Source: Anaerococcus sp. AGMB09787 (GTDB lineage Bacteria; Bacillota; Clostridia; Tissierellales; Peptoniphilaceae). Taken from it: a DNA stretch of 46,558 bases. The DNA lies in the NCBI RefSeq assembly GCF_022808955.1, contig NZ_JAKZEY010000007.1, forward strand, positions 1 to 46,558. Direction: 5' to 3'. A program made the position numbers and the translations under genes. The notes beneath the pieces were generated by a model. That model made no database searches. It was not told the origin of the DNA and was given only the letters and a program-made list of their open reading frames with translations. Shown piece after piece: positions 27,426 to 46,517 of this stretch (the first letter of the stretch is position 1; every line of letters begins with the position of its first letter).

Positions 27426-27672
27426 GGGGCTGTTGCAAAAATATGACTAATCATCGTCCCATCGTTAGAAGCTTGTCTTAGACAATTTGAGACTAGCCTG
27501 TCGGCTCATGGAGACAAGCCTGTCGGCTCTAAGAGACAAGCCCGTCGGCTCATGGAGACCTAGCCCGTCGGCTCTTTGAGACCTAGCCCGTCGGCTCATA
27601 GAATCCAAATTGTCGTATATGTTCTTCTAACGTTATCGGGACGATTTATTCATTCTACAACGCCCCTTTTTT
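27426..27672. repeat. Nested inverted repeat with five tandem units at its apex
   Basis: Outer arms pair in order: GGGGC (27426-27430) with GCCCC (27662-27666), ATCGTCCC (27453-27460) with GGGACGAT (27638-27645), CGTTAGAAG (27463-27471) with CTTCTAACG (27624-27632), and GACAATTTG (27481-27489) with CAAATTGTC (27606-27614). Six T's follow. Five units of 22-23 bases fill the tip. It follows mscL and could end transcription, but its size suggests a mobile or structured-RNA element. Confidence 0.8.
27489..27600 (+). repeat. Five tandem 22-23-base units
   Basis: Units start at 27489, 27511, 27533, 27555 and 27578 with no spacers. Each starts GAGAC, contains the core AGCCYGTCGGCTC and ends in a variable ATG/TAA/TTT/ATA. 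The core itself is a small inverted repeat (AGCC and GGCT around four bases). The first three units are 22 bases and the last two 23. Related single units occur at 55-79 and 15401-15430. Confidence 0.9.
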
Positions 27673-27826: not shown

Positions 27827-27919
27827 ATGATAATAGATTTAAGATTACCAGTAGATATACTTATACCTTTATGTACTAATTCATCACATTCTTGTGGCGG
27901 TGGACGTTTAATTATATAA
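27827..27919 (+). CDS. Small peptide, candidate exported peptide precursor
   Basis: A 30-residue open frame starting MIIDLRLPVDILIPL and ending in CTNSSHSCGGGR plus LII. Two cysteines are seven residues apart, followed by three glycines and an arginine. GAAAGGAGATC lies 11-13 bases upstream, a strong but slightly distant ribosome binding site. A promoter precedes it, and a 64-residue protein and an ABC exporter follow on the same strand. This is the layout of small bacteriocin or signalling peptides. I recognise no family, and no modification enzyme is adjacent. A competing frame with ATG at 27805 is 24 codons long and lacks a good binding site. Confidence 0.5.
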   Translation: MIIDLRLPVDILIPLCTNSSHSCGGGRLII

Positions 27920-28031
27920 TTTGTGATAAATTTTAATAATATTATTATTTTAAAATAAATAAAGCAAAATTTTTTACTTATTAAGCCATCAGTCTATTAA
28001 AGTTTTTAATTTTTCTTTTAGGAGGAGTTAT

Positions 28032-28226
28032 ATGAAGGAAAACTTTATAAAAATAAAAAAGATTAAAGGAAAAAAATTTTTATTTGATTCAAAGAATATG
28101 ATACTTATTTTAAAAAATGTGTGCGAAAGAGAAAAAAGATTTGACTATGCACTAGAGAAAGTACTAGAAAAAATAGTAACTGGTGAAATAAATAAGATAA
28201 GAGATAATTTTATAAATTATATATGA
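28032..28226 (+). CDS. Small basic protein of the peptide/ABC cassette
   Basis: 64 residues, basic, with no signal peptide or membrane segment. A strong AGGAGGAGTTAT precedes the ATG. The sequence runs KKIKGKKFLFDSKNMILILKN, then a helical RFDYALEKVLEKIVTGEINK. The layout, a short strand segment followed by helices, faintly resembles the PqqD-like recognition fold of peptide-modification systems, but I cannot confirm this. It is 12 bases before the exporter, so the two are surely cotranscribed. It could bind the peptide or act in immunity. Function unknown. Confidence 0.7.
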   Translation: MKENFIKIKKIKGKKFLFDSKNMILILKNVCEREKRFDYALEKVLEKIVTGEINKIRDNFINYI

Positions 28227-28237
28227 GGTAAAATTTT

Positions 28238-29782
28238 ATGCAATACATAAAACACACAATTAAAAATCATAGAAAAACATCTGCCTGGCTAGTAATTGGA
28301 GTAAGCCTTTGTAATATCCTAGCTCTTTTATATAATTATAACTTCAAATATGTAATCGATGCTGTTGTAGCAAAAGATATTAACCTAGCTTTAAAAAATT
28401 TTATTTTACTTGTCATTTTACAAATCTTTGTTACTCTAGGCACTCTATTAGTCTATGATTATTATTTAAAAATCTTTCAAAAAAAGATAGAACGTGGGAT
28501 AAGATATGACCTTATGAAAGAGATTTTAGCTTGGCCTTTCTCTAAGTCCAAAGATATTTCCTCTGGCAAGCTATCTACTCTAATTAACCAAGATGTAAGC
28601 CAAATTGGCCAATATGTTTCTTTATATGATTTTATGTTAGTAGCCAATACACTTAGATTTTTCATCACTTACTTTCTTCTCTTTACATTGGATAGATTAA
28701 TAGCTCTTGTAGTCTTATTATCAGTTCCCCTTTATTATCTGCTTACTAAGTTTACCCTAGAGCCTATGAAAAATTTCGTAGATGAAGGCTACATACAAAA
28801 AGATAAATTAAATAATTCTTTTATAGATATTTTAAATAATCTGATGACAATAAAATCATACAAGCTAGAAAATATAATAGGTAATGAAGCAGAAAAAAAG
28901 ACAAATGAGCTTTATCTTAAAGAAAAGGGGCTTCAAAAATGGACAGCCATCTTTTATTTTATAAGAAACTTCCTAACAAGCTTTATGCCAGTAGCAATCT
29001 TGGGCTTATCTATTGTAAGAATCATATCAGGTAATATGACCATAGGAACTATGGTTGCTATTTTTGGTTTTTTAGATGCTGTGTATCTACCAATTTCAGA
29101 ACTTTTTTATTTTAAGGCTATGAAAAATAATTTAGAACCTGTAGTTGATAGAATAGAACCAATTATAAATTCTAAGATTAATAAAAATGATATGAGAGAT
29201 CTATCTTATGGATATCCTATGATTAAAACATCAAACTTATCTTACTCTTATGGTAAAAATCAAGTAATTGATAAGCTAAATTTAAATATAGATAGCCCTG
29301 GTCTATATAGGATATGTGGACAAAATGGAAATGGAAAGACTACCTTATTTAACATAATAGCAGGCTTATATAATGATTTTTCAGGAAAAGTTCAATTAAA
29401 TTTAAGTAAAACTTATCCAAATCTTGCTTACATGAACCAAAATGATACGCTATTTGCGAGCAATTTACTTGATAACATAAGCCTTTTTAATAAAAATAAA
29501 TTAAATAAGCTTTCACTTGATTTAATAGAAAAATTTAGAAAAAGGGAAGATACCGCTGATAGTTTCTCAGGTGGAGAAAAAAGATTATTTCTTTTCTTAA
29601 GAACTATAAATGCAAAGGCCTCCATTTACTTATTCGATGAGCCCTTTGAAGGAGTAGATCCTGTTAACAAAGAAATAATGAAAGATATAATAAGAAATCT
29701 AGCCAAAGATAAGATTGTTCTAATAATTACCCATAATGATGATCTATCTAATCTGAGATATAAAAATATAGACCTTAAATAA
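28238..29782 (+). CDS. ABC exporter, membrane and ATPase domains fused
   Basis: 514 residues, slightly short for the type because the ATPase domain is compact. Six membrane segments (about 15-285) are followed by the ATPase: Walker A GQNGNGKTTLFNII, Q-loop YMNQNDTLF, signature FSGGEKRLF, Walker B IYLFDEPFEGVDP and the H-loop histidine in LIITHND. There is no N-terminal C39 peptidase, so it would not cleave a leader itself. A homodimer is expected. With the upstream small genes it is the likely exporter of the 30-residue peptide, or a self-protection pump. Confidence 0.88.
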   Translation: MQYIKHTIKNHRKTSAWLVIGVSLCNILALLYNYNFKYVIDAVVAKDINLALKNFILLVILQIFVTLGTLLVYDYYLKIFQKKIERGIRYDLMKEILAWPFSKSKDISSGKLSTLINQDVSQIGQYVSLYDFMLVANTLRFFITYFLLFTLDRLIALVVLLSVPLYYLLTKFTLEPMKNFVDEGYIQKDKLNNSFIDILNNLMTIKSYKLENIIGNEAEKKTNELYLKEKGLQKWTAIFYFIRNFLTSFMPVAILGLSIVRIISGNMTIGTMVAIFGFLDAVYLPISELFYFKAMKNNLEPVVDRIEPIINSKINKNDMRDLSYGYPMIKTSNLSYSYGKNQVIDKLNLNIDSPGLYRICGQNGNGKTTLFNIIAGLYNDFSGKVQLNLSKTYPNLAYMNQNDTLFASNLLDNISLFNKNKLNKLSLDLIEKFRKREDTADSFSGGEKRLFLFLRTINAKASIYLFDEPFEGVDPVNKEIMKDIIRNLAKDKIVLIITHNDDLSNLRYKNIDLK

Positions 29783-36630: not shown

Positions 36631-38394
36631 TTACCTAAAAGACTCACTTTTTGCGTCCCAAATTCTTTTAAAGGCTCCTTCTTCTCCCCTAAGTTTATCA
36701 AAGCTTCCTCGTTGGCTAATCTCCCCATCTGCCATTACTATTATCTCATCAGCAAGTTTTGCACTAAGTAATTTATGGGAAATAATTATCATGGTTCTAT
36801 TTTCCTTATATTTTTCTAAGAACTTAAATATTTTCTCTTCCTTTAGGGGATCTATATCATTAGTTGGCTCATCAAAAATAACGAAATTTCTATTCCTATA
36901 TATGCATCTTAATATCGCTAGCTCTTGCCATTGACCTTTTGACAAATTAAAATCTCCTAGGTCCTCACCTACTATTTTTTCATAGGGAAAAGTTCTAAAG
37001 GATGACTTATCTAAGATATTTATAGCCCTATCTTTACTTGCTTTAGTATCGGATATTGTAACATTTTCTATAATAGAAAGAGGATATTTGGCATAATTTT
37101 GAAAAGTTGCGCTCTTATCCGTATAAGTATCTAATAAGTCTACATCTACCCTAGAGCCATCTACTAACACACTTCCACTTTCTGCCTTGTATAAACCCAA
37201 TATAATACTTACAAGGCTTGTTTTACCTGAGCCATTTTCTCCAACAATGACATAGGTCTTGCCTTTTTCTATCTTTAAATCCAACTTATCTAGGGTATAA
37301 TTCGTGGAATTAGGGTATTTAAATTTGATATTTTTAAATTCTAAAAAGTTATTAAAATCTTCTGACAATGCTTTTTTCTTAGCATCTTTATAAGTCTTAT
37401 AGAATTTAAAGTAGGCTTCTGTCATATCAATAAATATTCCTTCATAACTTGATAGGCTTGAATATTGTTCGCTTGTTTGAAGAATCATTCTCATAGCAAA
37501 GAAACTTAAGGCAAAGCCTACGAAATCTTTCCTCACCATAAGAATATAATATAAGTAAAAATACAAGGCTATATTTAATATTAGGGACAATATCTTTATT
37601 TTACCTGCCTTAAAGGCTAAATCATTATTAACTTTTTGGGCTGTCTTTTCAAAATTATCAAAAAGCTTATCACATTTACACTTTATAAATGTATAGAAAT
37701 TGTAGATCTCATTATCTCTTACATATCCTGGCCTAGTTAATAAGTCGGTTATTTCCAACTTTTTTAAAGTAAATTTATGGATTTCATCCTTGCTTTCATC
37801 GATTATCCTATGCTTACTATTATTTTCTATATAACCTAATATCAAAGATAATAGCAAAAATAGTAAGTATGTCCAGCTTAAATTTATAAAAAATACAGAA
37901 AGTAGTATAAAATTTAAAATCAATCCTATTTTTTCTATAGATATTTCTACAAGCCTAAAAATATTAGTAGCAGACACACTTGCCTCATATATGTCCCTAT
38001 AGATTTTCCTATCTTCAAATTTTATAGGCTCTATATTTGAACTTATATCTTGCATATGTAATTTAAACTTCTTTTCAAAACTAGGCAGCAAGACAAATTG
38101 GACATAATAGGAATTAAAGAAGGACTTTTTAACTTGTAAGATCAAGACAACAAATAAATATATTAACAAAGCTTCAACTACTAAGGCAAAATAACTTATA
38201 GAATTCTTTTTCCCTAAGACTTGTAATAGGTTGTTAAGAGCAAATAAAGCTAGAAAATTTACAAAAGTAAACCCTATCTCTACGAAAGCAATAATTACAA
38301 AAGTTTTTCTATCAATTTTTAGAAATTCTCTAATAGCCCTCTTAATTTTTGAAAACTTATTTGTACAATTTCTTTTGTGCCTGATATAAACCAT
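36631..38394 (-). CDS. ABC half-transporter of the peptide locus, second pair, partner B
   Basis: 587 residues: six membrane segments (about 30-320) and an ATPase. Walker A is GENGSGKTSLVSII, the Q-loop TFQNYAKYP, Walker B FVIFDEPTNDIDP and the H-loop IISHK. The signature is degenerate, FNLSKGQWQE instead of LSGGQ, so one of the two ATP sites of the heterodimer is probably weak. Its start lies 38 bases inside the end of the preceding gene, indicating coupling. No C39 peptidase domain. Last gene of the locus; substrate inferred from context. Confidence 0.87.
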   Translation of the reverse strand: MVYIRHKRNCTNKFSKIKRAIREFLKIDRKTFVIIAFVEIGFTFVNFLALFALNNLLQVLGKKNSISYFALVVEALLIYLFVVLILQVKKSFFNSYYVQFVLLPSFEKKFKLHMQDISSNIEPIKFEDRKIYRDIYEASVSATNIFRLVEISIEKIGLILNFILLSVFFINLSWTYLLFLLLSLILGYIENNSKHRIIDESKDEIHKFTLKKLEITDLLTRPGYVRDNEIYNFYTFIKCKCDKLFDNFEKTAQKVNNDLAFKAGKIKILSLILNIALYFYLYYILMVRKDFVGFALSFFAMRMILQTSEQYSSLSSYEGIFIDMTEAYFKFYKTYKDAKKKALSEDFNNFLEFKNIKFKYPNSTNYTLDKLDLKIEKGKTYVIVGENGSGKTSLVSIILGLYKAESGSVLVDGSRVDVDLLDTYTDKSATFQNYAKYPLSIIENVTISDTKASKDRAINILDKSSFRTFPYEKIVGEDLGDFNLSKGQWQELAILRCIYRNRNFVIFDEPTNDIDPLKEEKIFKFLEKYKENRTMIIISHKLLSAKLADEIIVMADGEISQRGSFDKLRGEEGAFKRIWDAKSESFR

Positions 38395-40054
38395 AGAATT
38401 CCTCTTTTTTATCCATCAATTCATCAAATGTCCCCTCTTCAAAGAGTTTATTGTCCTTCAACACCAAGATCTTATCACATATCGACACTATTCCCATCCT
38501 ATGTGATATAAATATCGACAAGTTATCATCTGTAAACTTATCTATATTCTTATAAAAATTAAGCTCAGATATAGGATCAAGGCTAGCTGTAGGTTCATCT
38601 AAAATCAAAACCTTGTTTTTGTCTTTGTATACTCTTTCCATAAATACTTTTTGCCATTGGCCGCCAGATAGGTCTACGGGACTATCATCTAATTTAGATA
38701 GATTTGCCTGTAAGCCGTGAGGAAATTTTTTAGCAAGCTTCAGTATATCTTCTGAATAGCTGGTCTTGGCTTTAACTGATAAATCGATATTATCTTTGAT
38801 AGTAAAAGGATATTTGCTAGAATCTTGTAATAAGATAGAAAATAAATTTCTCTTATCTTGACTGCTTAGACTATAAGTGGGTATTCCATTTATAGTAACT
38901 TCTCCTTTTGTAGGCTCATATAAACCCAATAAAAGTTTTATCAAAGTTGATTTTCCTGCTCCATTTTCACCTATTATTAAGTAGGAAATACCTGAAGTAA
39001 AGGTATAGGAAAAATCTTCTAGTGTATATTTATTTGATCCTGGATAAGAAAAATACACATTCTTAAAGTCTATCTTATACTTGCTAAATTCTTCCTTTAC
39101 TCTATATTCGTTATTAGGTCTTGGTTTTAAAACTAGCTTATCCATAATATCTAAGGCTAAATTATATTGGTTAAATAAATCCTTATCTGCCAAGATATTT
39201 TGAATCACTCCATCAGCGCCTAATTTTAATGATAAGATTAATATTATTTTTGAAAATGATATAGATGAATTCTGGTCTAAACACGCTGATAATAATATAG
39301 ATACTCCTGTTGTTAGAATTGATAGTACCAACAAGATAGCTTCTAGGATAAATTTACTTTTCCCTAACTTTCGATTACTTCTACTGCCCTTATCAAAAGA
39401 TTTAGAAAATTTTGCCTGTATGTAGTCCTTAAAATTAAATAAATTTCTCTCATACAAGTGGTCTTTATCTATCAAAATTTTGTCAATAATATTTGAAACT
39501 CTCATATTGCCCATATACTCTGGCCAAATCGCTTTGTTCTTTTGAGAAACTTTTATATTTATAGGAATATATAGTAAGGCTGAGATTATAAAAATTAGAA
39601 ACAAATAAAAGTTTATATTAAATATAAAAACATATACACTTATTAAGTAAGCTATCCCCTTAATAATATTAGCTAGGCTAATAAAATATGTCCTCCTATC
39701 TTTTAAAAAATTAGCCAAAATACTATAATCTCTTTGGTAGTTAGCATTTTCGCTATCTACTAAACTTAAAGGTTTATCTAGATAAATCTTTGTGAAATAA
39801 TCCTTCTCTTCCAAGTATGTCTTCTTATTAATCAAATAAGTAGTTACACTTTCAGCAAATTTCTTAACCAAGAGACTTATAGCAAATAAAACAAAAGTTC
39901 CTAATATATCCTCATTCTTTTCTACAATAAAGCTCGATACCTCAAAAATTAAGTAAAGGGAATAAAAATTTAAAAATCCTAGCAAAATAGACAAAAATGA
40001 TATGAGCCGGGAGTAAAGCTTATTATATTTAAAAAAGTCTCCTATAATTTTCAT
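38357..40054 (-). CDS. ABC half-transporter of the peptide locus, second pair, partner A
   Basis: 565 residues with six membrane segments and a complete ATPase: Walker A GENGAGKSTLIKLL, Q-loop LLQDSSKYPF, signature LSGGQWQKVF, Walker B VLILDEPTASLDP and H-loop FISHRMG. The GGQWQK form of the signature is common in Firmicute peptide exporters (established for several bacteriocin loci, as I recall). It probably pairs with the next gene, which has a degenerate signature. Its start lies inside the end of a broken gene. Confidence 0.88.
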   Translation of the reverse strand: MKIIGDFFKYNKLYSRLISFLSILLGFLNFYSLYLIFEVSSFIVEKNEDILGTFVLFAISLLVKKFAESVTTYLINKKTYLEEKDYFTKIYLDKPLSLVDSENANYQRDYSILANFLKDRRTYFISLANIIKGIAYLISVYVFIFNINFYLFLIFIISALLYIPINIKVSQKNKAIWPEYMGNMRVSNIIDKILIDKDHLYERNLFNFKDYIQAKFSKSFDKGSRSNRKLGKSKFILEAILLVLSILTTGVSILLSACLDQNSSISFSKIILILSLKLGADGVIQNILADKDLFNQYNLALDIMDKLVLKPRPNNEYRVKEEFSKYKIDFKNVYFSYPGSNKYTLEDFSYTFTSGISYLIIGENGAGKSTLIKLLLGLYEPTKGEVTINGIPTYSLSSQDKRNLFSILLQDSSKYPFTIKDNIDLSVKAKTSYSEDILKLAKKFPHGLQANLSKLDDSPVDLSGGQWQKVFMERVYKDKNKVLILDEPTASLDPISELNFYKNIDKFTDDNLSIFISHRMGIVSICDKILVLKDNKLFEEGTFDELMDKKEEFYGLYQAQKKLYK

Positions 40055-40308
40055 AACATCCTCGATTAAATTCTTTTTTTATAATATCTAAAGTAAATTT
40101 TTCTGCTTCTCTTGCTAAATCATCATAAGTTTCTAGTAAATCTTCTTTACTTTGATTAGCAGATATATATATATAAATTGCTCTTTTGTTCCGTATTTAT
40201 ATAAAAACGAAAAGAAAATTTTTCCTACTCTCATAAATAATTTATCATATAAATTATAATAATTTTCAGGTAGATCACACAAATTAATTATTGAATTTAT
40301 GTTTTTAG
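40029..40308 (-). pseudogene. Unrecognised gene, truncated by IS256 and frameshifted at a TA repeat
   Basis: From the IS end the frame reads LDSKNINSIINLCDLPENYY, then FFSFLYKYGTKEQFIYI, and stops soon after. At 40163-40175 there is a run of alternating A and T. Removing one TA pair joins the frame to SANQSKEDLLETYDDLAREA, then EKFTLDIIKKEFNRGCYENY, ending at 40029 inside the first codons of the ABC gene. The N-terminus is absent, also on the far side of the IS. I do not recognise the family. It lay in the same operon as the exporters. Confidence 0.65.
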
Positions 40309-41617
40309 AGTCAAGTCCATAATATTGTGTAAATTAATCTAGTACAATATTTACTATTTCATTTTAATATACAATTTAGAAGATGTTAGGAGGTCCTCAT
40401 TGATATCAATGAGGATTGAACCTATTAAGCGCATAGCAGATTTTTCATTAGGAAATATCCTAACGACTTTCTCTCGTCTTCTAACTTCTTGATTTAATCT
40501 TTCTATGCAATTTGTTGACCTAAGTCTACTATGAATTACATCATTAGCTAGATATGCAAAAGTATCTTCAAATCCTTCATCTAAGGTCTTTAAAGAGTTT
40601 TGAAATTTCTTTTCGTTTTCATATTTTACGAATATCTCATCTTTCATTTTTCTTGCTAGAGATATATCTTGAATTTTAAATAAAGACTTCATATCTGCCC
40701 TAAATTCTTCAGTGTTTTTCTTTGGTGCTTTTGATAGGATGTTTCTTAGAAAATGGACTTGACATCTTTGCCATGATACATTTATAAATGTTTCTTTTAT
40801 TGCTTTGACTAGACCTTTGTGAGCATCTGATATTACCATTTTAACTCCAGATAGTCCCCTAGCTTTTAAATATTCAAAGAAGTTTGACCATGAGTATTCA
40901 CTTTCACCCTCACTTAGATCTAAGCCTATGATTTCTCTATTTCCTTTTTCATTTATTCCTATTGCTATATGGCAAGCTTTTGATACTACTCTATTGTTTT
41001 CTCTTACTTTTATGTATACTACATCTACAAGTATGTAGGGATATGTTATTGTGCTTAGATCACTATTTCTCCATAGTTTTACTTCTTCATCTAGCTCTTT
41101 AGTTAAGGATGATACAAAGGATTTGGAATATATTTTACCACACATGTTTTCTATTACCTTGGATACTTTTCTTGTTGATACTCCTTGGATGTACATTTCT
41201 AACATGGTTGCAAGTAGAGCTTTTTCATTTCTTTGATATCTTTCGAATAGCTCTGTCGAGAATTTACCATCCCTTGTTCTAGGTACTCTTAGGGTTAAAG
41301 TTCCTATTTTTGTCGTATAGTCACGTTCATAGTATCCATTACGGTAAGTGCTCCTATTAGGATCTCTTTGATAGGCTTGATTATCTAAGTATTCATCTCT
41401 TTCTTTTTCCATAAGTTCATTAAAAACTTTTGTTAGGATAGATTTAGCAATTTTATTATTTACAGATTCATTAATTAAATTTTGTATTTCTTCTTGATTA
41501 ATTGTAAAATGTAATTGGGTCATTTGTTCCTCCTAGTTGTTTTTGTGGTTAAAAACATTGTACTAGTTTAGGTTTCAAATGACCTTTTTCTTTTTACACA
41601 ATTATACGGGCACTATC
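40309..41617 (-). mobile_element. Complete IS256-family insertion sequence
   Basis: About 1.3 kb. Inner ends GTCCATAATATTGTGTAAA (40315-40333) and, reversed at 41593-41611, GCCCGTATAATTGTGTAAA agree at 15 of 19 positions; the outer GATAGTG-like extension recalls IS256 itself. The right boundary is supported by the remnant at 1-189, which matches exactly up to the same base. No target-site duplication is evident (GTTTTTAG versus AAAAATCC), so flanking DNA may have been lost. Confidence 0.88.
40354..41523 (-). CDS. IS256-family (mutator type) transposase
   Basis: 389 residues, normal length. The DDE residues fit D167 (ILVDVVYIKV), D233 (MVISDAHKGL) and E341 (NCIERLNQEVRRR). C254 and H257 in SWQRCQVHFLRNIL are the family's C...H motif. 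RVPRTRDGKFSTELFERYQR is the usual N-terminal domain end. It appears intact and may be active. Confidence 0.95.
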   Translation of the reverse strand: MTQLHFTINQEEIQNLINESVNNKIAKSILTKVFNELMEKERDEYLDNQAYQRDPNRSTYRNGYYERDYTTKIGTLTLRVPRTRDGKFSTELFERYQRNEKALLATMLEMYIQGVSTRKVSKVIENMCGKIYSKSFVSSLTKELDEEVKLWRNSDLSTITYPYILVDVVYIKVRENNRVVSKACHIAIGINEKGNREIIGLDLSEGESEYSWSNFFEYLKARGLSGVKMVISDAHKGLVKAIKETFINVSWQRCQVHFLRNILSKAPKKNTEEFRADMKSLFKIQDISLARKMKDEIFVKYENEKKFQNSLKTLDEGFEDTFAYLANDVIHSRLRSTNCIERLNQEVRRREKVVRIFPNEKSAMRLIGSILIDINEDLLTSSKLYIKMK

Positions 41618-41650
41618 AAAAATCCACCACTAGGCCATGATGGATTTATA
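41618..41650 (-). terminator. Terminator after the first ABC pair
   Basis: On the minus strand AATCCATCA and TGGTGGATT form a nine-pair stem (one G-T) around TGGCCTAG, followed by TTTTT. It lies about 70 bases after the ABC stop and immediately outside the insertion sequence end. It would limit read-through from the first pair into the second. Confidence 0.65.
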
Positions 41651-41717
41651 TATATCTAATATAAGTATATGATTTTAAATCAAAAGAGAAAGCCCCTTGT
41701 TTAATAAAACCTCACTA

Positions 41718-43514
41718 CTAACCTTTATAAGCCCTCCTTTGACTTAAGTATAGATCTTTATAGAGGCCCTTTTTCTCCATTAATTCTTCATGCGAACCAA
41801 ATTCCCTTACACAGCCCTTGTCCATGACTATTATCTTATCAACGAATCTAGTCATAGCCATACGATGGGTTATGATTATAGCAGTTTTCCCCTTAGCCAT
41901 AGTTAGAAAGTTATTGAATAACCCGCTCTCTTCAATAGGGTCTATGGCAGAAGTGGGCTCATCAAGGATTATAATTTTTGAGCCTTTGTAAAGTCCTCTG
42001 GCAATAGCAACCTTTTGCCATTGTCCACCTGAAAGATCAACTCCTCCAAAGTCTCTAGACAACATTGTTTCCATTCCCTTAGGAAAGACGCTTTTATTTA
42101 ATACTAAATTGCTCTTCTCTAAACTTTCCCTTATAGAAAAATCTGATATATTTTTACTAAAATCACTTATAACTATGTTATCAAAAAGGCTCATCTTGTA
42201 TTTACAAAAATTTTGAAACACTGCAGAGACATTAAGACTTATGTCTTCGTCTTCTTTACAAGGGTTTCTACCATCATAGCTTATAAAACCCGATGTAGGT
42301 CTATAAATTCCACCTATAATACTTGCAAGAGTTGACTTTCCCGATCCGTTTTCACCAACTATGGCAATTGTATCTCCTCTATTTATGACAAGATTTATAT
42401 TAGACAATGATTTAGTCTTACTTAATGGATAGGTAAATGAAATATTATGTAAAACTATTTCAGGAGAGCTTTCCATGCTGATTTTTTTATATTTCTTATC
42501 TTTAACTTCTATGAAGTTAATATAATTTTCTACATAGACCACCTGTTTTATGGCGGATCCTATTACATAAAATATAAATTCTTCAGCCATCATCATAAGC
42601 ATATTGATAGATCCTATAACAGCACCAAAATTTCCTATACTAATAAATCCGCCCATCAAATACTTTGATAACATCAATAAACTTATTATATTGGCAATAA
42701 ATAAAGGAATCTTAAAAACGAATTCAATTTTTGATGATTTTACTTGAGTATCTAAAGACTCTCGATTCATCACTTTTAATTTATCCTTATATCTTCCCAT
42801 AAAAAAATGAAAAGCCCCTAACATTCTTGTCTCTTTAAGTTTATCACTAGCTATTAAACATTCTTTATAATGATCACACTCCCTACGAAAATAGCTTACA
42901 TTATTTTCCAATCTTGCGTATAATTTCTTCTTAAACAATTGTGAAAGTATCGGTCCAATAATGAATAAAAATAAAATAAATATAAGGATAGGCCTTATCC
43001 TATATAAATATATTCCTAATGTTATAAAATAAGGAATATAAGTAAAAATACCAAGACTTAGTCCAGTTACTAGTTGAACTATACTATTTATTCCCTTATG
43101 TGCCTTATTTATTGTATTCAAATATTCTGATGATTCAAATTTAATAGGTGATTCTTTAGAACATTTGAGATTAAATTCTTTTTCAATCTTTCCTTGAACT
43201 TTAAGCTCAAAATCACTTGACAATGTCGTATTTATGCCATTAAAAACTGGATTTGCTAATATAGTCAATAATAAGATTAGAAAATTTACAAAGACAATCG
43301 AAATATCGACCTTACCTTTGATATAATAATCAACCACATTTAAAAATTGATCAAGCCTAACAGTATTATATGCCAAGATAAACCCTAAAGTAAAATTTAT
43401 ACAAGCTATAAGCAAAAAATATAAAGGAGATGCTTTTACAACAATTTTAAAAGAATAATATATGTTCTTAAAATCAAATTTATTTTTCATCTTCGTACCA
43501 TTTCTTTTGCTCAT
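41718..43514 (-). CDS. ABC half-transporter of the peptide locus, first pair, partner B
   Basis: 598 residues with six membrane segments (about 20-320). Walker A is GENGSGKSTLASII, Q-loop VFQNFCKYKMS, signature LSGGQWQKVAIARG, Walker B IIILDEPTSAIDP, H-loop IITHRMA. The first ATG overlaps the upstream gene by 35 bases; a second ATG at 43490 (MKNKFDFKN) is an equal candidate start. No peptidase domain. It likely forms a heterodimer with the gene upstream to move the modified peptide. Confidence 0.88.
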   Translation of the reverse strand: MSKRNGTKMKNKFDFKNIYYSFKIVVKASPLYFLLIACINFTLGFILAYNTVRLDQFLNVVDYYIKGKVDISIVFVNFLILLLTILANPVFNGINTTLSSDFELKVQGKIEKEFNLKCSKESPIKFESSEYLNTINKAHKGINSIVQLVTGLSLGIFTYIPYFITLGIYLYRIRPILIFILFLFIIGPILSQLFKKKLYARLENNVSYFRRECDHYKECLIASDKLKETRMLGAFHFFMGRYKDKLKVMNRESLDTQVKSSKIEFVFKIPLFIANIISLLMLSKYLMGGFISIGNFGAVIGSINMLMMMAEEFIFYVIGSAIKQVVYVENYINFIEVKDKKYKKISMESSPEIVLHNISFTYPLSKTKSLSNINLVINRGDTIAIVGENGSGKSTLASIIGGIYRPTSGFISYDGRNPCKEDEDISLNVSAVFQNFCKYKMSLFDNIVISDFSKNISDFSIRESLEKSNLVLNKSVFPKGMETMLSRDFGGVDLSGGQWQKVAIARGLYKGSKIIILDEPTSAIDPIEESGLFNNFLTMAKGKTAIIITHRMAMTRFVDKIIVMDKGCVREFGSHEELMEKKGLYKDLYLSQRRAYKG

Positions 43515-45297
43515 TAAACATCTGTCTATAAAGTCCGTCTATGCTCATTAGACTTTTATAATCTCCTTCTTCTACAAGTCTTCCATCATCAAATACAAAT
43601 ATCTTGTCAGCAAAAACTGTAGAAGCCAATCGATGACTAATAAATATTGCAAGCTTATCCTTATTTTCTCTTTTAAATATTTCATATAAGTCATTTTCAC
43701 TAAATGGATCCAGATTTGAAGTAGGCTCATCAAGGACTCTTACTGGCGCATCACTCATCATAGCCCTTGCTATGGCGATTTTTTGCCATTGTCCTCCTGA
43801 AAGATCAACACTTTCTCTTTTTATTTTACCTAAAGGTGTATCTAAACCCTTACTAAGAGTATTACTTAAATCAAATATACCTAAACTTCTAGAAATCCTA
43901 TTAATTTTTTTCTCATTTATTCCATTATCAAAATTATTTACATCACCAAGCTCGATATTTTCCCTAATAGTAATGCCATATTTTGCATAATCTTGATAAA
44001 TAACTGAGAAAATAGCTTTCAATTCTTCATTCTTATAATTCTTAAGCGATATACCATTTATAAGTACTTCACCCTCATATTCATCATAAAGTCCAGTTAA
44101 AATTTTTATAAGTGTACTTTTACCACATCCATTTTTACCCACTAGGGCATAATGTTTTTTATCATTCATAGTAAAATTTAGCTTATGCAACACATACCTA
44201 TCAGTTCCTGGATATTTGAATGAAAGATTTTTAAATTCTATGCTTTTAATTTCGAATCTTTCTTTGGAAGGTAGGGATAAGTAAGTTAAGTCTTTATCTA
44301 AATTTATTAACTTCTCCATATAATGCAAAAAGTTCATTGAATTAGACAAACTTTCGCTATATTCAGGAAGTTCCCGTGATAGGTTGGGTATTAAAGATAT
44401 AATTGCATTTACTATAGCAACAAATGTTCCGAAAGTTAAATTACCTTTCTTTAAAGGATTAAGAATAATTAAAATAATAAGTCCTATCAAAAAGGAAGTT
44501 AATAGACCTGATATTTCAGAACCCGATAGCCATTTTAGACTAGCCTTTCTTTTTATAATCCTAGCTTTCTCATATTCTTCATACCATCTAGCCTTTATTT
44601 CTTGTGAATAATTAAAAAGACTTCTTTCTTTTACAAAATCTCTCCCTGTTAAAAGACCGGAAAAATAATTTGCATATCTTTTGTGCCTCTCCTGATCTAT
44701 ACTTGCTTTATAATTTACTTTACCAGCCTTAATTGCTAGAAAAATACCAGGAATAGATACCAAAGTTATAATAAAAGTAGCCTGTGGAATTTTAACAAAG
44801 AGAAAGAAAATAATACTTAAGATTTTTATAATTAAGCTTCCTGCCCTAAGTAAATTCAGATAAGAATCAGACAAATAAGTTTCCGGATTATCAACTATTC
44901 TTGAAATCATATCAAGGCTTTCCGGATTTTCAAAATATTTATATTTCAAAGTTCCTATAGTTTCTACTAATTCAACAGTAAAAGTTTCACTTAAACTATT
45001 TTTTAATTTTAATTTAACATAGTCACTTATTATCGGATATAAATATGTATAAATCAAACTTATAACTATAAGTGATAAATATATATAAATATCTCCAATG
45101 AAGATACCCTCCTTTACAAATAAAGCCATAGAATCTATAAAGGATGATATGGCTTTTAATGATATAAGAGGAATAAACCCGTTAAAAAAGCTCAATACAA
45201 GTAAAGCAATTGAACATCCCCTTGAATAATAAAAAGGGATATGGACTATATCCAAAAAATTTAAATTTTTCTTAGCAAATAAATCGTAATTTTTCAT
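43480..45297 (-). CDS. ABC half-transporter of the peptide locus, first pair, partner A
   Basis: 605 residues. Six membrane segments (about 25-310) precede an ATPase with Walker A GKNGCGKSTLIKIL, Q-loop IYQDYAKYGI, signature LSGGQWQKIAIARA, Walker B VRVLDEPTSNLDP and H-loop FISHRLA. All motifs are canonical. It follows the radical SAM gene by 13 bases, so it is in the same operon. Export of the precursor-derived peptide is inferred from position. Confidence 0.89.
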   Translation of the reverse strand: MKNYDLFAKKNLNFLDIVHIPFYYSRGCSIALLVLSFFNGFIPLISLKAISSFIDSMALFVKEGIFIGDIYIYLSLIVISLIYTYLYPIISDYVKLKLKNSLSETFTVELVETIGTLKYKYFENPESLDMISRIVDNPETYLSDSYLNLLRAGSLIIKILSIIFFLFVKIPQATFIITLVSIPGIFLAIKAGKVNYKASIDQERHKRYANYFSGLLTGRDFVKERSLFNYSQEIKARWYEEYEKARIIKRKASLKWLSGSEISGLLTSFLIGLIILIILNPLKKGNLTFGTFVAIVNAIISLIPNLSRELPEYSESLSNSMNFLHYMEKLINLDKDLTYLSLPSKERFEIKSIEFKNLSFKYPGTDRYVLHKLNFTMNDKKHYALVGKNGCGKSTLIKILTGLYDEYEGEVLINGISLKNYKNEELKAIFSVIYQDYAKYGITIRENIELGDVNNFDNGINEKKINRISRSLGIFDLSNTLSKGLDTPLGKIKRESVDLSGGQWQKIAIARAMMSDAPVRVLDEPTSNLDPFSENDLYEIFKRENKDKLAIFISHRLASTVFADKIFVFDDGRLVEEGDYKSLMSIDGLYRQMFNEQKKWYEDEK

Positions 45298-45310
45298 ACT
45301 ATAAAATTAA

Positions 45311-46411
45311 TCACCAAAAATTTATATAATTATTGAACAATTTTTCAAGTTCATCAATACTACGATCATATATCTTTATTAAATAATTTACAGAATATTC
45401 GTAGTATATCTTCTTTTTGCAATCATTCAATCTTGAAATTTGCTTTGATTTTCCATAAAAAAATCTAACTATACAATCGCTACATATATTATTTGCCCGA
45501 CACTCATTGCAAGGATACCTATCCTTAGTGTTAATTTTATTGATTTTTTCAAAATCTATATCTTCCTTTATAAGGCTGATACAATGATGCCTGTTGCCCT
45601 TAGTATCGTATGTCTCTGAATTTCCTTCAACAAACTCATTACAAAATTTATTTGTAGCATATCCATATACCATAGATTCTATTAAATCCCTAACATAAGA
45701 AATCATTTCTCTGTTTAATGAATTATTAATTATTCGTTCATAAGTATTTTCTATGCACTTTTTTATGTATCTATCATAATCCTGATTATCTATTTTAAGT
45801 CTACGATCTTCAGTTATTACATCTGATATATGATAGGTTATATTAAATGAATCAAAAAATGAAATTAATTTATCATACTCTATATTCTCTTTGTGAATAT
45901 TAGTATATGTGCAATTCAATTCAAGATTATCATATAGATTAACTTCAGATATTTTTTGTATAGTATTAACTATATCTTTATATCGTATATTTCCCCTTAA
46001 TTTATCATTTATATATTCCGGACCGTCAATACTTATAATTATTTTAAAATTGTATTTTATTAGGAAATCTATTATTTCATCACTAAATAACACTCCGTTT
46101 GAGGTTATAATAAATCTATCAATTATAAAATCGTTATCTAACTCTTCAGTGATATATTTCATAATATTAAAATTAAGTAAAGGTTCGCCGCCAAAAAAGC
46201 TTACTGTCTTGATTCTTTTATACATCCCACTCAATTTATTTATTATTTTATCAGCCACATTCTTATTCATAAAACTATTGTTGTCATTAAAAAAATTATC
46301 TCTTTGATAGCAATAAATACATTTACCATTACAATCGGTAGTTAATAATATCTCTAATTTTTCTAATATACCTGGTTCTGGCTTAAAGTAATCTATTCCA
46401 TGTATACGCAT
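45311..46411 (-). CDS. Radical SAM/SPASM peptide maturase
   Basis: 366 residues. C27, C31 and C34 (CNGKCIYC) hold the SAM-binding iron-sulfur cluster, followed by FFGGEPLLN and ISIDGP. The C-terminus has a full SPASM set: C257, G272-x4-C277, C301-x2-C304-x5-C310-x2-C313 and C331, for two auxiliary clusters. SPASM enzymes modify peptides by thioether, C-C or related bonds, or form formylglycine. The core domain starts at about residue 18, so no N-terminal RRE/PqqD-like recognition domain is present. It starts 13 bases after the small peptide gene, whose product is the natural substrate candidate. The chemistry cannot be told from sequence. Confidence 0.9.
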   Translation of the reverse strand: MRIHGIDYFKPEPGILEKLEILLTTDCNGKCIYCYQRDNFFNDNNSFMNKNVADKIINKLSGMYKRIKTVSFFGGEPLLNFNIMKYITEELDNDFIIDRFIITSNGVLFSDEIIDFLIKYNFKIIISIDGPEYINDKLRGNIRYKDIVNTIQKISEVNLYDNLELNCTYTNIHKENIEYDKLISFFDSFNITYHISDVITEDRRLKIDNQDYDRYIKKCIENTYERIINNSLNREMISYVRDLIESMVYGYATNKFCNEFVEGNSETYDTKGNRHHCISLIKEDIDFEKINKINTKDRYPCNECRANNICSDCIVRFFYGKSKQISRLNDCKKKIYYEYSVNYLIKIYDRSIDELEKLFNNYINFW

Positions 46412-46424
46412 TGTTATACATATC

Positions 46425-46517
46425 CTACTTTTCTACATCTATACCTGTTTTATGTACTCCACAATTAGATGGAGTATCACCTTTTTTCTTTTTAACTCTG
46501 ACAACTTTAATTTTCAT
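46425..46517 (-). CDS. Candidate precursor peptide for the radical SAM enzyme
   Basis: 30 residues: a basic leader (MKIKVVRVKKKK) followed by GDTPSNCGVHKTGIDVEK. One cysteine follows an asparagine; histidine, lysine and threonine come after it. AAAAGGATGTTTT provides a weak ribosome binding site. The size matches the streptide precursor (about 30 residues), but the sequence is different. A leader of only about 15 residues, together with an enzyme lacking a recognition domain, is unusual. The short open frame is real in sequence; its role rests on position and composition. Confidence 0.68.
   Translation of the reverse strand: MKIKVVRVKKKKGDTPSNCGVHKTGIDVEK

Follow-up and report, generated by a model that had tools for sequence, protein, structure and literature searches.

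Streptosactin, whose mature form is given as NASCGPSHSCGGGR (PMC12445099, Table 4), carries two bonds, Cys25-Ser28 and Cys31-Gly34 in the numbering of its precursor GggA, and its maturase GggB is a thioether-forming enzyme (PMC8172795); another passage of the same paper prints Cys15 for the first bond, which does not fit the 14-mer, and a figure legend there assigns the streptococcal cluster a protease, GggC. GGG peptides, a group of radical S-adenosylmethionine (SAM) ribosomally synthesized and post-translationally modified peptides (RaS-RiPPs), are listed from streptococci only in the relevant section of PMC13361665, and, among the listed titles of papers mentioning streptosactin, none reports it from another genus; one paper, on Streptococcus thermophilus, contains the string SHSCGGGR. 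Here, we describe two peptide loci in a window of 46,558 nucleotides from Anaerococcus sp. AGMB09787 (NZ_JAKZEY010000007.1; contig C51 of a 2.0-Mb genome, which the window covers from end to end). What appears to be new, judged from the DNA, is an enzyme of the GggB clade paired with an unlike, single-Cys peptide in locus B (36631-46517) and, 18 kb away in the same window, a decaying locus of the streptosactin type, locus A. For anaerobes of this sort, radical SAM peptides as such are no novelty, since PMC4289311 lists a thuricin-like radical SAM gene for Anaerococcus prevotii; records on the host family together with radical SAM yielded nothing relevant.

With a probability of roughly 0.55, we read locus B as a RaS-RiPP operon in which a 30-residue precursor would receive a thioether on Cys19 from the GggB-clade enzyme and be exported by two ATP-binding cassette (ABC) half-transporters, ABC1 and ABC2. 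The four genes are:

46425..46517, minus strand: putative RiPP precursor, 30 residues, single Cys (C19); from codon usage and a Shine-Dalgarno sequence, AAGGA
45311..46411, minus strand: radical SAM maturase, GggB-like, 366 residues; from the top NCBIfam match, GggB, and a Pfam radical SAM domain
43480..45297, minus strand: ABC half-transporter ABC1 (type-a subunit); from Pfam and NCBIfam matches and identity to other pairs
41718..43514, minus strand: ABC half-transporter ABC2 (type-b subunit); from Pfam and NCBIfam matches and identity to other pairs

This reading is favored because the peptide, enzyme and ABC1 genes are closely spaced (13 bases from the peptide gene to the enzyme gene and 13 from there to ABC1) and because three core and seven C-terminal Cys of the enzyme are intact. 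The initial annotation, made from the letters and their open reading frames (ORFs), had described a 30-codon frame 13 bases before a radical SAM gene, then two ABC half-transporters, an insertion sequence and two more half-transporters, and had compared the whole to a RaS-RiPP layout; each of these genes is found in its place, and the peptide, SPASM-type enzyme and ABC genes agree with such a layout.

The locus B peptide, MKIKVVRVKKKKGDTPSNCGVHKTGIDVEK, is probably the product of a genuine gene, since its frame ranks fourth in codon usage among the 169 window ORFs of 25-40 codons and is the best-ranked of the 13 with a Shine-Dalgarno match of at least five bases, which goes beyond chance, even if the codon-usage test is imperfect, with the locus A peptide, real on other grounds, ranking only 72nd of 169 with a six-base Shine-Dalgarno match. 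It has no match in Pfam or NCBIfam and no Trp among its 30 residues. Its C-terminal part holds one Cys, in the context CGVH and forming the sole Cys-Gly near the C-terminus, one His and two Lys (K23 and K30); the initial annotation had proposed a single Cys, His or Lys as crosslink site, and the first two are indeed single while Lys is not. A stem-loop followed by T's lies inside the gene (46454-46477, read on the plus strand; one found versus 0.1 expected from shuffles of the region). Between the gene and the contig end at 46558 there are 41 bases, and the last 141 bases of the contig are not repeated at length elsewhere in the genome (other matches span at most 39 bases).

For the enzyme, NCBIfam puts the streptosactin maturase GggB first (NF050038, 170 bits), followed by a nif11-type family (88 bits), the PapB ranthipeptide maturase (NF047865, 80 bits, below its cut-off of 340) and the anaerobic sulfatase maturase (TIGR03942, 51 bits, below its cut-off of 349). 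Its CxxxCxxC core motif is formed by C27, C31 and C34, and seven C-terminal Cys (C257, C277, C301, C304, C310, C313 and C331) have a spacing that resembles that of the SPASM motif; the Pfam scan gave no SPASM line. In a phylogenetic tree, the enzyme groups with GggB-first enzymes from two other genomes of the same bacterial family, G029 and G068 (support 99/98), which score 238 and 232 bits to GggB, both below cut-off; the program flagged both its long branch (1.6) and its unusual letter make-up. Identity to these two enzymes is 31-34%, and profile and tree together place the locus B enzyme in the GggB clade as a divergent member. The same data keep it apart from anaerobic sulfatase activators: its sulfatase-maturase score is less than a third of its GggB score, and a sulfatase-maturase-like enzyme on contig C1 of its own genome (C1:125391; 378 bits, above cut-off) sits elsewhere in the tree. 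The locus B enzyme has 26 residues before its first cluster Cys, versus 68 in the G068 enzyme and 65 in the G029 enzyme counted from Met20 (84 from its listed start), and lacks the front part that both carry; enzymes without such a front exist, as the WgkB model (367 positions) aligns from its position 11, near the core.

Close relatives of the enzyme are few. At E≤1e-25 it matches 3 of 130 genomes of the family (own, G029 and G068), at 1e-28 the identical three of 249 genomes of the order and its own genome only of 398 of the phylum; a three-row profile at 1e-45 matches its own genome only among 391 of the class. Class and phylum genomes were a sample, and a subset of candidates per genome was scored, so that relatives may be missed. 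The GggB family at 1e-40 finds, in 299 genomes, the own genome and nothing above cut-off.

The G029 and G068 enzymes lie downstream of peptides of about 30 residues with a C-terminal Cys-Gly, MTYIDLKLPADIELPLCTNQSHACGAGHSPS and MKKIKLRLCKKEIVVLCHNNSGSCGGGRSIDIQ respectively, which resemble each other (0 of 10000 shuffles reach their score) and are taken as GGG-type from their sequences. A second G068 peptide, MKKLKLRLSKKEIVVLCQNSSHACGGGRTIDIC, stands before the preceding ABC gene; this site (L117, G068:C35) carries two different GGG-type precursors in the order peptide-ABC-peptide-enzyme-ABC, with the last ABC gene cut by the contig end. Small peptides are thus present beside the related maturases, but they are not recognizably homologous to the locus B peptide and lend no support to conservation of its particular frame.

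In the proposed mechanism, the 30-residue peptide would be precursor and substrate of the 366-residue SPASM-type enzyme, which would use a 5'-deoxyadenosyl radical to join C19, through a thioether, to the alpha-carbon of a residue close by. With the Cys31-Gly34 bond of streptosactin (i to i+3) as the model, the partner would most likely be His22, giving a four-residue ring and a loss of 2.016 Da. A Cys thioether is favored over a streptide-type Lys-Trp link because the enzyme is near the GGG maturases and the peptide has no Trp. The leader would then be removed by a protease, for which no gene was identified in locus B or elsewhere in the window, and the product would leave through an ABC1/ABC2 heterodimer.

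Several observations weigh against this reading. The 170 bits of the enzyme do not reach the curated GggB cut-off of 650, the tree (40 rows, 38 different) includes no streptococcal GggB, and no relative above 34% identity was found. Scored against the G068 peptide, the locus B peptide ranks 5th of 446 background ORFs (a set from the window plus 12 own-genome loci, with some overlap) and 446 of 10000 shuffles reach its score; against the G029 peptide it ranks 339th of 446, and 8391 of 10000 shuffles do so. A five-peptide GGG profile gives it -1.7 bits, a score that 369 of 751 distinct ORFs (the peptide's own counted) and 1184 of 2000 shuffles reach, and a search of the 130 family genomes at E up to 0.5 returned the peptide itself and one chance-level match (E 0.288). 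A further precursor could lie upstream, past the contig end, and an insertion sequence and broken gene piece downstream of ABC2 suggest decay on one side.

Where GGG precursors have two Cys and a Cys-Gly-Gly-Gly core, the locus B peptide has one Cys and CGVH. Its PSNCGVHK can be set beside PSHSCGGGR by eye, but descent as a diverged GGG precursor was unsupported by pairwise scores or the five-peptide profile and was rejected. Because it has no match to the GGG peptide family, the locus B peptide is, on these comparisons, of a different, single-Cys kind. That it belonged to no recognized class, as first noted, stands for the peptide; the enzyme does have a place, near the streptosactin (GGG) maturases. 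A peptide not of the GGG kind also fits a rival in which the enzyme does modify it but the change installed is not a Cys thioether (examples being a C-C or ether link, epimerization or a bond at His22), and the survey text of PMC13361665 credits radical SAM maturases of short peptides with many bond types. We consider this unlikely, if worth keeping in mind, as the nearest characterized family by profile is a thioether-forming enzyme (described as such in PMC8172795) and the peptide retains one Cys-Gly near its C-terminus.

Downstream of ABC2, locus B continues with:

40317..41609, minus strand: IS256-family element; ends tentative, from an inverted repeat
40354..41523, minus strand: IS256-family transposase; from NCBIfam
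40055..40317, minus strand: gene piece beside the insertion sequence, frame broken; from ORF analysis
38357..40054, minus strand: ABC half-transporter ABC3; from Pfam and NCBIfam
36631..38394, minus strand: ABC half-transporter ABC4, signature LSKGQ; from Pfam and NCBIfam

No target duplication was established at the IS256-family element, and a Pfam line for the AT-rich piece at 40055-40317 (16 bits, cut-off 52) was taken as chance and dropped. The ABC1 and ABC2 genes overlap by 35 bases and the ABC3 and ABC4 genes by 38. The initial annotation spoke of duplicated exporter pairs, a view that does not survive: identities of 31% (ABC1-ABC3) and 30% (ABC2-ABC4) rule out the second pair as a copy of the first, and the pairs are, on this measure, two distinct heterodimers separated by the IS256-type element. 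The nearest proteins to ABC1 are C53a (37%) and C31a (30%), and to ABC2 are C53b (38%) and C31b (36%), which places ABC1/ABC2 in a family of heterodimers that numbers at least three pairs in the own genome. On C31 (L119), the ABC pair stands in a row with three radical SAM genes, which have matches to cobalamin-type families, and a YcaO gene, an arrangement seen also in L121 (G028). Identities of ABC3 and ABC4 to the other 12 ABC proteins in the comparison, which took in ABC1 and ABC2, lie at 25-33%, and in Pfam none of the four proteins has a C39 peptidase domain. ABC4-like genes at 1e-40 are found in 7 of 31 genomes of the genus, own included, the 13 matches listed besides itself being 27-30% identical, and ABC1-like genes are found in all 31, so ABC1-type genes as such are no marker of peptide loci. 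G+C content is 27.9% at 41718-46517 and 26.4% in locus A (27827-29782) versus 36.2% in bases 1-27000; the low values of both loci fit acquisition from outside, which is probable for locus B.

The contig end, insertion sequence and broken gene piece, together with the breakage of two other radical SAM peptide loci of the own genome (locus A and one on C1), would also suit a remnant without function, its small frame and enzyme having ceased to be expressed. With the peptide, enzyme, ABC1 and ABC2 frames open, motifs intact and operon spacing kept, we regard such a remnant as distinctly unlikely and retain the RaS-RiPP operon as the preferred reading.

Locus A, on the other strand of the same window, comprises:

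27827..27919, plus strand: streptosactin-type precursor, 30 residues, ending CTNSSHSCGGGRLII; from pairwise scores, the family-genome search and streptosactin identity
28032..28226, plus strand: remnant of a GggB-like maturase, 64 codons; from alignment to the G029 enzyme
28238..29782, plus strand: ABC half-transporter, 514 residues; 61% identity to the ABC protein of the G029 GGG locus

The locus A peptide, MIIDLRLPVDILIPLCTNSSHSCGGGRLII, surfaced during background ORF scoring, where its score against the G029 peptide was 88 and that of the next-best ORF 14; the two peptides share 68% identity over 25 residues (E 1e-8). In the 130 family genomes at E up to 0.5, six genomes matched, through the peptide itself, the G029 peptide (1e-8), two G068 peptides (1.8e-5 and 0.0015) and three chance-level lines (0.15-0.45); its high GGG profile score arises by construction, the peptide having been one of the five in the profile. 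It has eight residues, SHSCGGGR, in common with mature streptosactin and a streptosactin-like core (Cys, Ser-His-x-Cys-Gly-Gly-Gly) as CTNSSHSCGGGR, in which the first Cys is one residue farther from Ser-His than in streptosactin. The maturase remnant aligns to the G029 enzyme over 25 front residues (counted from Met20) and over its final 39; beside the precursor, two ends of a GggB-type maturase are present and the catalytic core is absent. A weak Pfam line for the remnant was taken as chance and dropped. Upstream of locus A, at 27489-27599, is a 22-base tandem repeat in five copies, GAGACTAGCCCGTCGGCTCATG, with a shorter run seen by eye in G027.

The same chromosomal place in G027 (L205 1-1919, G027:C80) has the same neighbors and DNA 92-97% identical in four pieces. 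There, the peptide and enzyme front are missing; what is left is a 135-residue frame, with 133 residues aligned to the G029 enzyme's end, and an ABC frame that stays open through 500 codons, up to the contig end. Because the maturase is broken in two different ways in the two genomes while the ABC gene stays open in both, the data suggest that the transporter may give immunity, protecting the cell against the peptide. An assembly error could underlie the deletion in the own genome or in G027.

As locus A has an intact GGG precursor and an exporter but no catalytic core, and as the locus B enzyme is the sole unbroken GggB-best enzyme among the eight own-genome radical SAM places found with it as query, that enzyme might act in trans on the orphan precursor. 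This is improbable: besides its low identity to the G029 and G068 enzymes and its own adjacent peptide, the locus B enzyme is only 30% identical to the locus A-type G027 piece, versus 59% between that piece and the G029 enzyme, values that also ruled it out as the displaced core of the locus A enzyme. Further, G027, with a different deletion in the same gene, has no locus B enzyme (at E 1e-25; the three-row profile finds only the C80 piece), so the decay of locus A does not need locus B. That the locus B enzyme, without the front part of its relatives, serves both its own single-Cys peptide and the locus A precursor is less probable still.

The eight own-genome places comprise, with the locus B enzyme on C51, enzymes with PapB (C16), mycofactocin-type (C37) and FibroRumin (C52) as best families, a SCIFF maturase on C4 (737 bits, above cut-off), a PapB ranthipeptide maturase on C2 (L004 1237-2589; 372 bits, above the cut-off of 340), the sulfatase-maturase-like enzyme on C1 and a broken frame at C1:195421 (GggB 65 vs PapB 61 bits); the three radical SAM genes on C31 fall outside them. 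Also on C1, a small frame, MNEITCTTSNVVMLLCGCVIGSCGNTVTPD (L006 1281-1373), lies beside a radical SAM gene broken in frame and one cluster Cys short, and a stretch similar to its CGCAIGSC occurs in the L214 peptide. On C16 (L215 4052-7552), a 44-residue peptide with SSCGKACGG is accompanied by a 153-residue protein with no NCBIfam match, a PapB-type radical SAM enzyme and an ABC gene. At 1e-25, the three-row profile matches 97 of the 130 family genomes, and 12 loci were opened from this set. Among the seven scanned against families, PapB came first in L206, L209, L212, L213, L214 and L215, and the L205 piece had no family match at 1e-15; the peptides of L208 and L216 are presumably SCIFF-like, and L207, L210 and L211 were outside the scan. 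One contig scan for relatives gave none, a further one gave only general radical SAM proteins among the best 80 of 335 relatives (21-44% over the best segment), and searches of viral contigs, plasmids and phages yielded nothing.

The SCIFF maturase above its cut-off suggests a clostridial anaerobe as host, whereas TopA does not discriminate (53% identity to Acetoanaerobium and 51-52% to Bacillus and others among the matches listed). If the host is such an anaerobe, the window together with G029, G068 and G027 would take the GGG family outside the streptococci, in operons that include an ABC gene, and would pair a related enzyme with a quite different single-Cys peptide. Such a pairing, if true, would make the substrate rule of GggB-type enzymes testable.

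Among known systems, streptide (KxxxW), the layout of which includes a transporter, is like locus B in its short precursor and SPASM-type enzyme; it differs in its Lys and Trp core, as the locus B peptide has no Trp and the best family of the enzyme is GggB. PapB-type ranthipeptide maturases form a related SPASM-type family, to which the locus B enzyme scores less than half as high as to GggB; several loci from other members of the same bacterial family, like the own-genome C2 enzyme, have PapB as their best family. Suisactin and enteropeptin are described, in the summaries of PMC13361665 and PMC12445099, as short peptides with small sactionine rings, a likeness that for locus B would lie in the proposed ring only. 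Streptosactin is matched by the locus A peptide through the shared eight residues, whereas the locus A maturase differs in lacking its core. In locus B, the peptide differs from streptosactin in having one Cys, no GGG and no GGG profile match, and ABC half-transporters follow, the streptococcal cluster being given a protease, GggC (figure legend in PMC8172795); like streptosactin, locus B has GggB as the best enzyme family and a short precursor just upstream.

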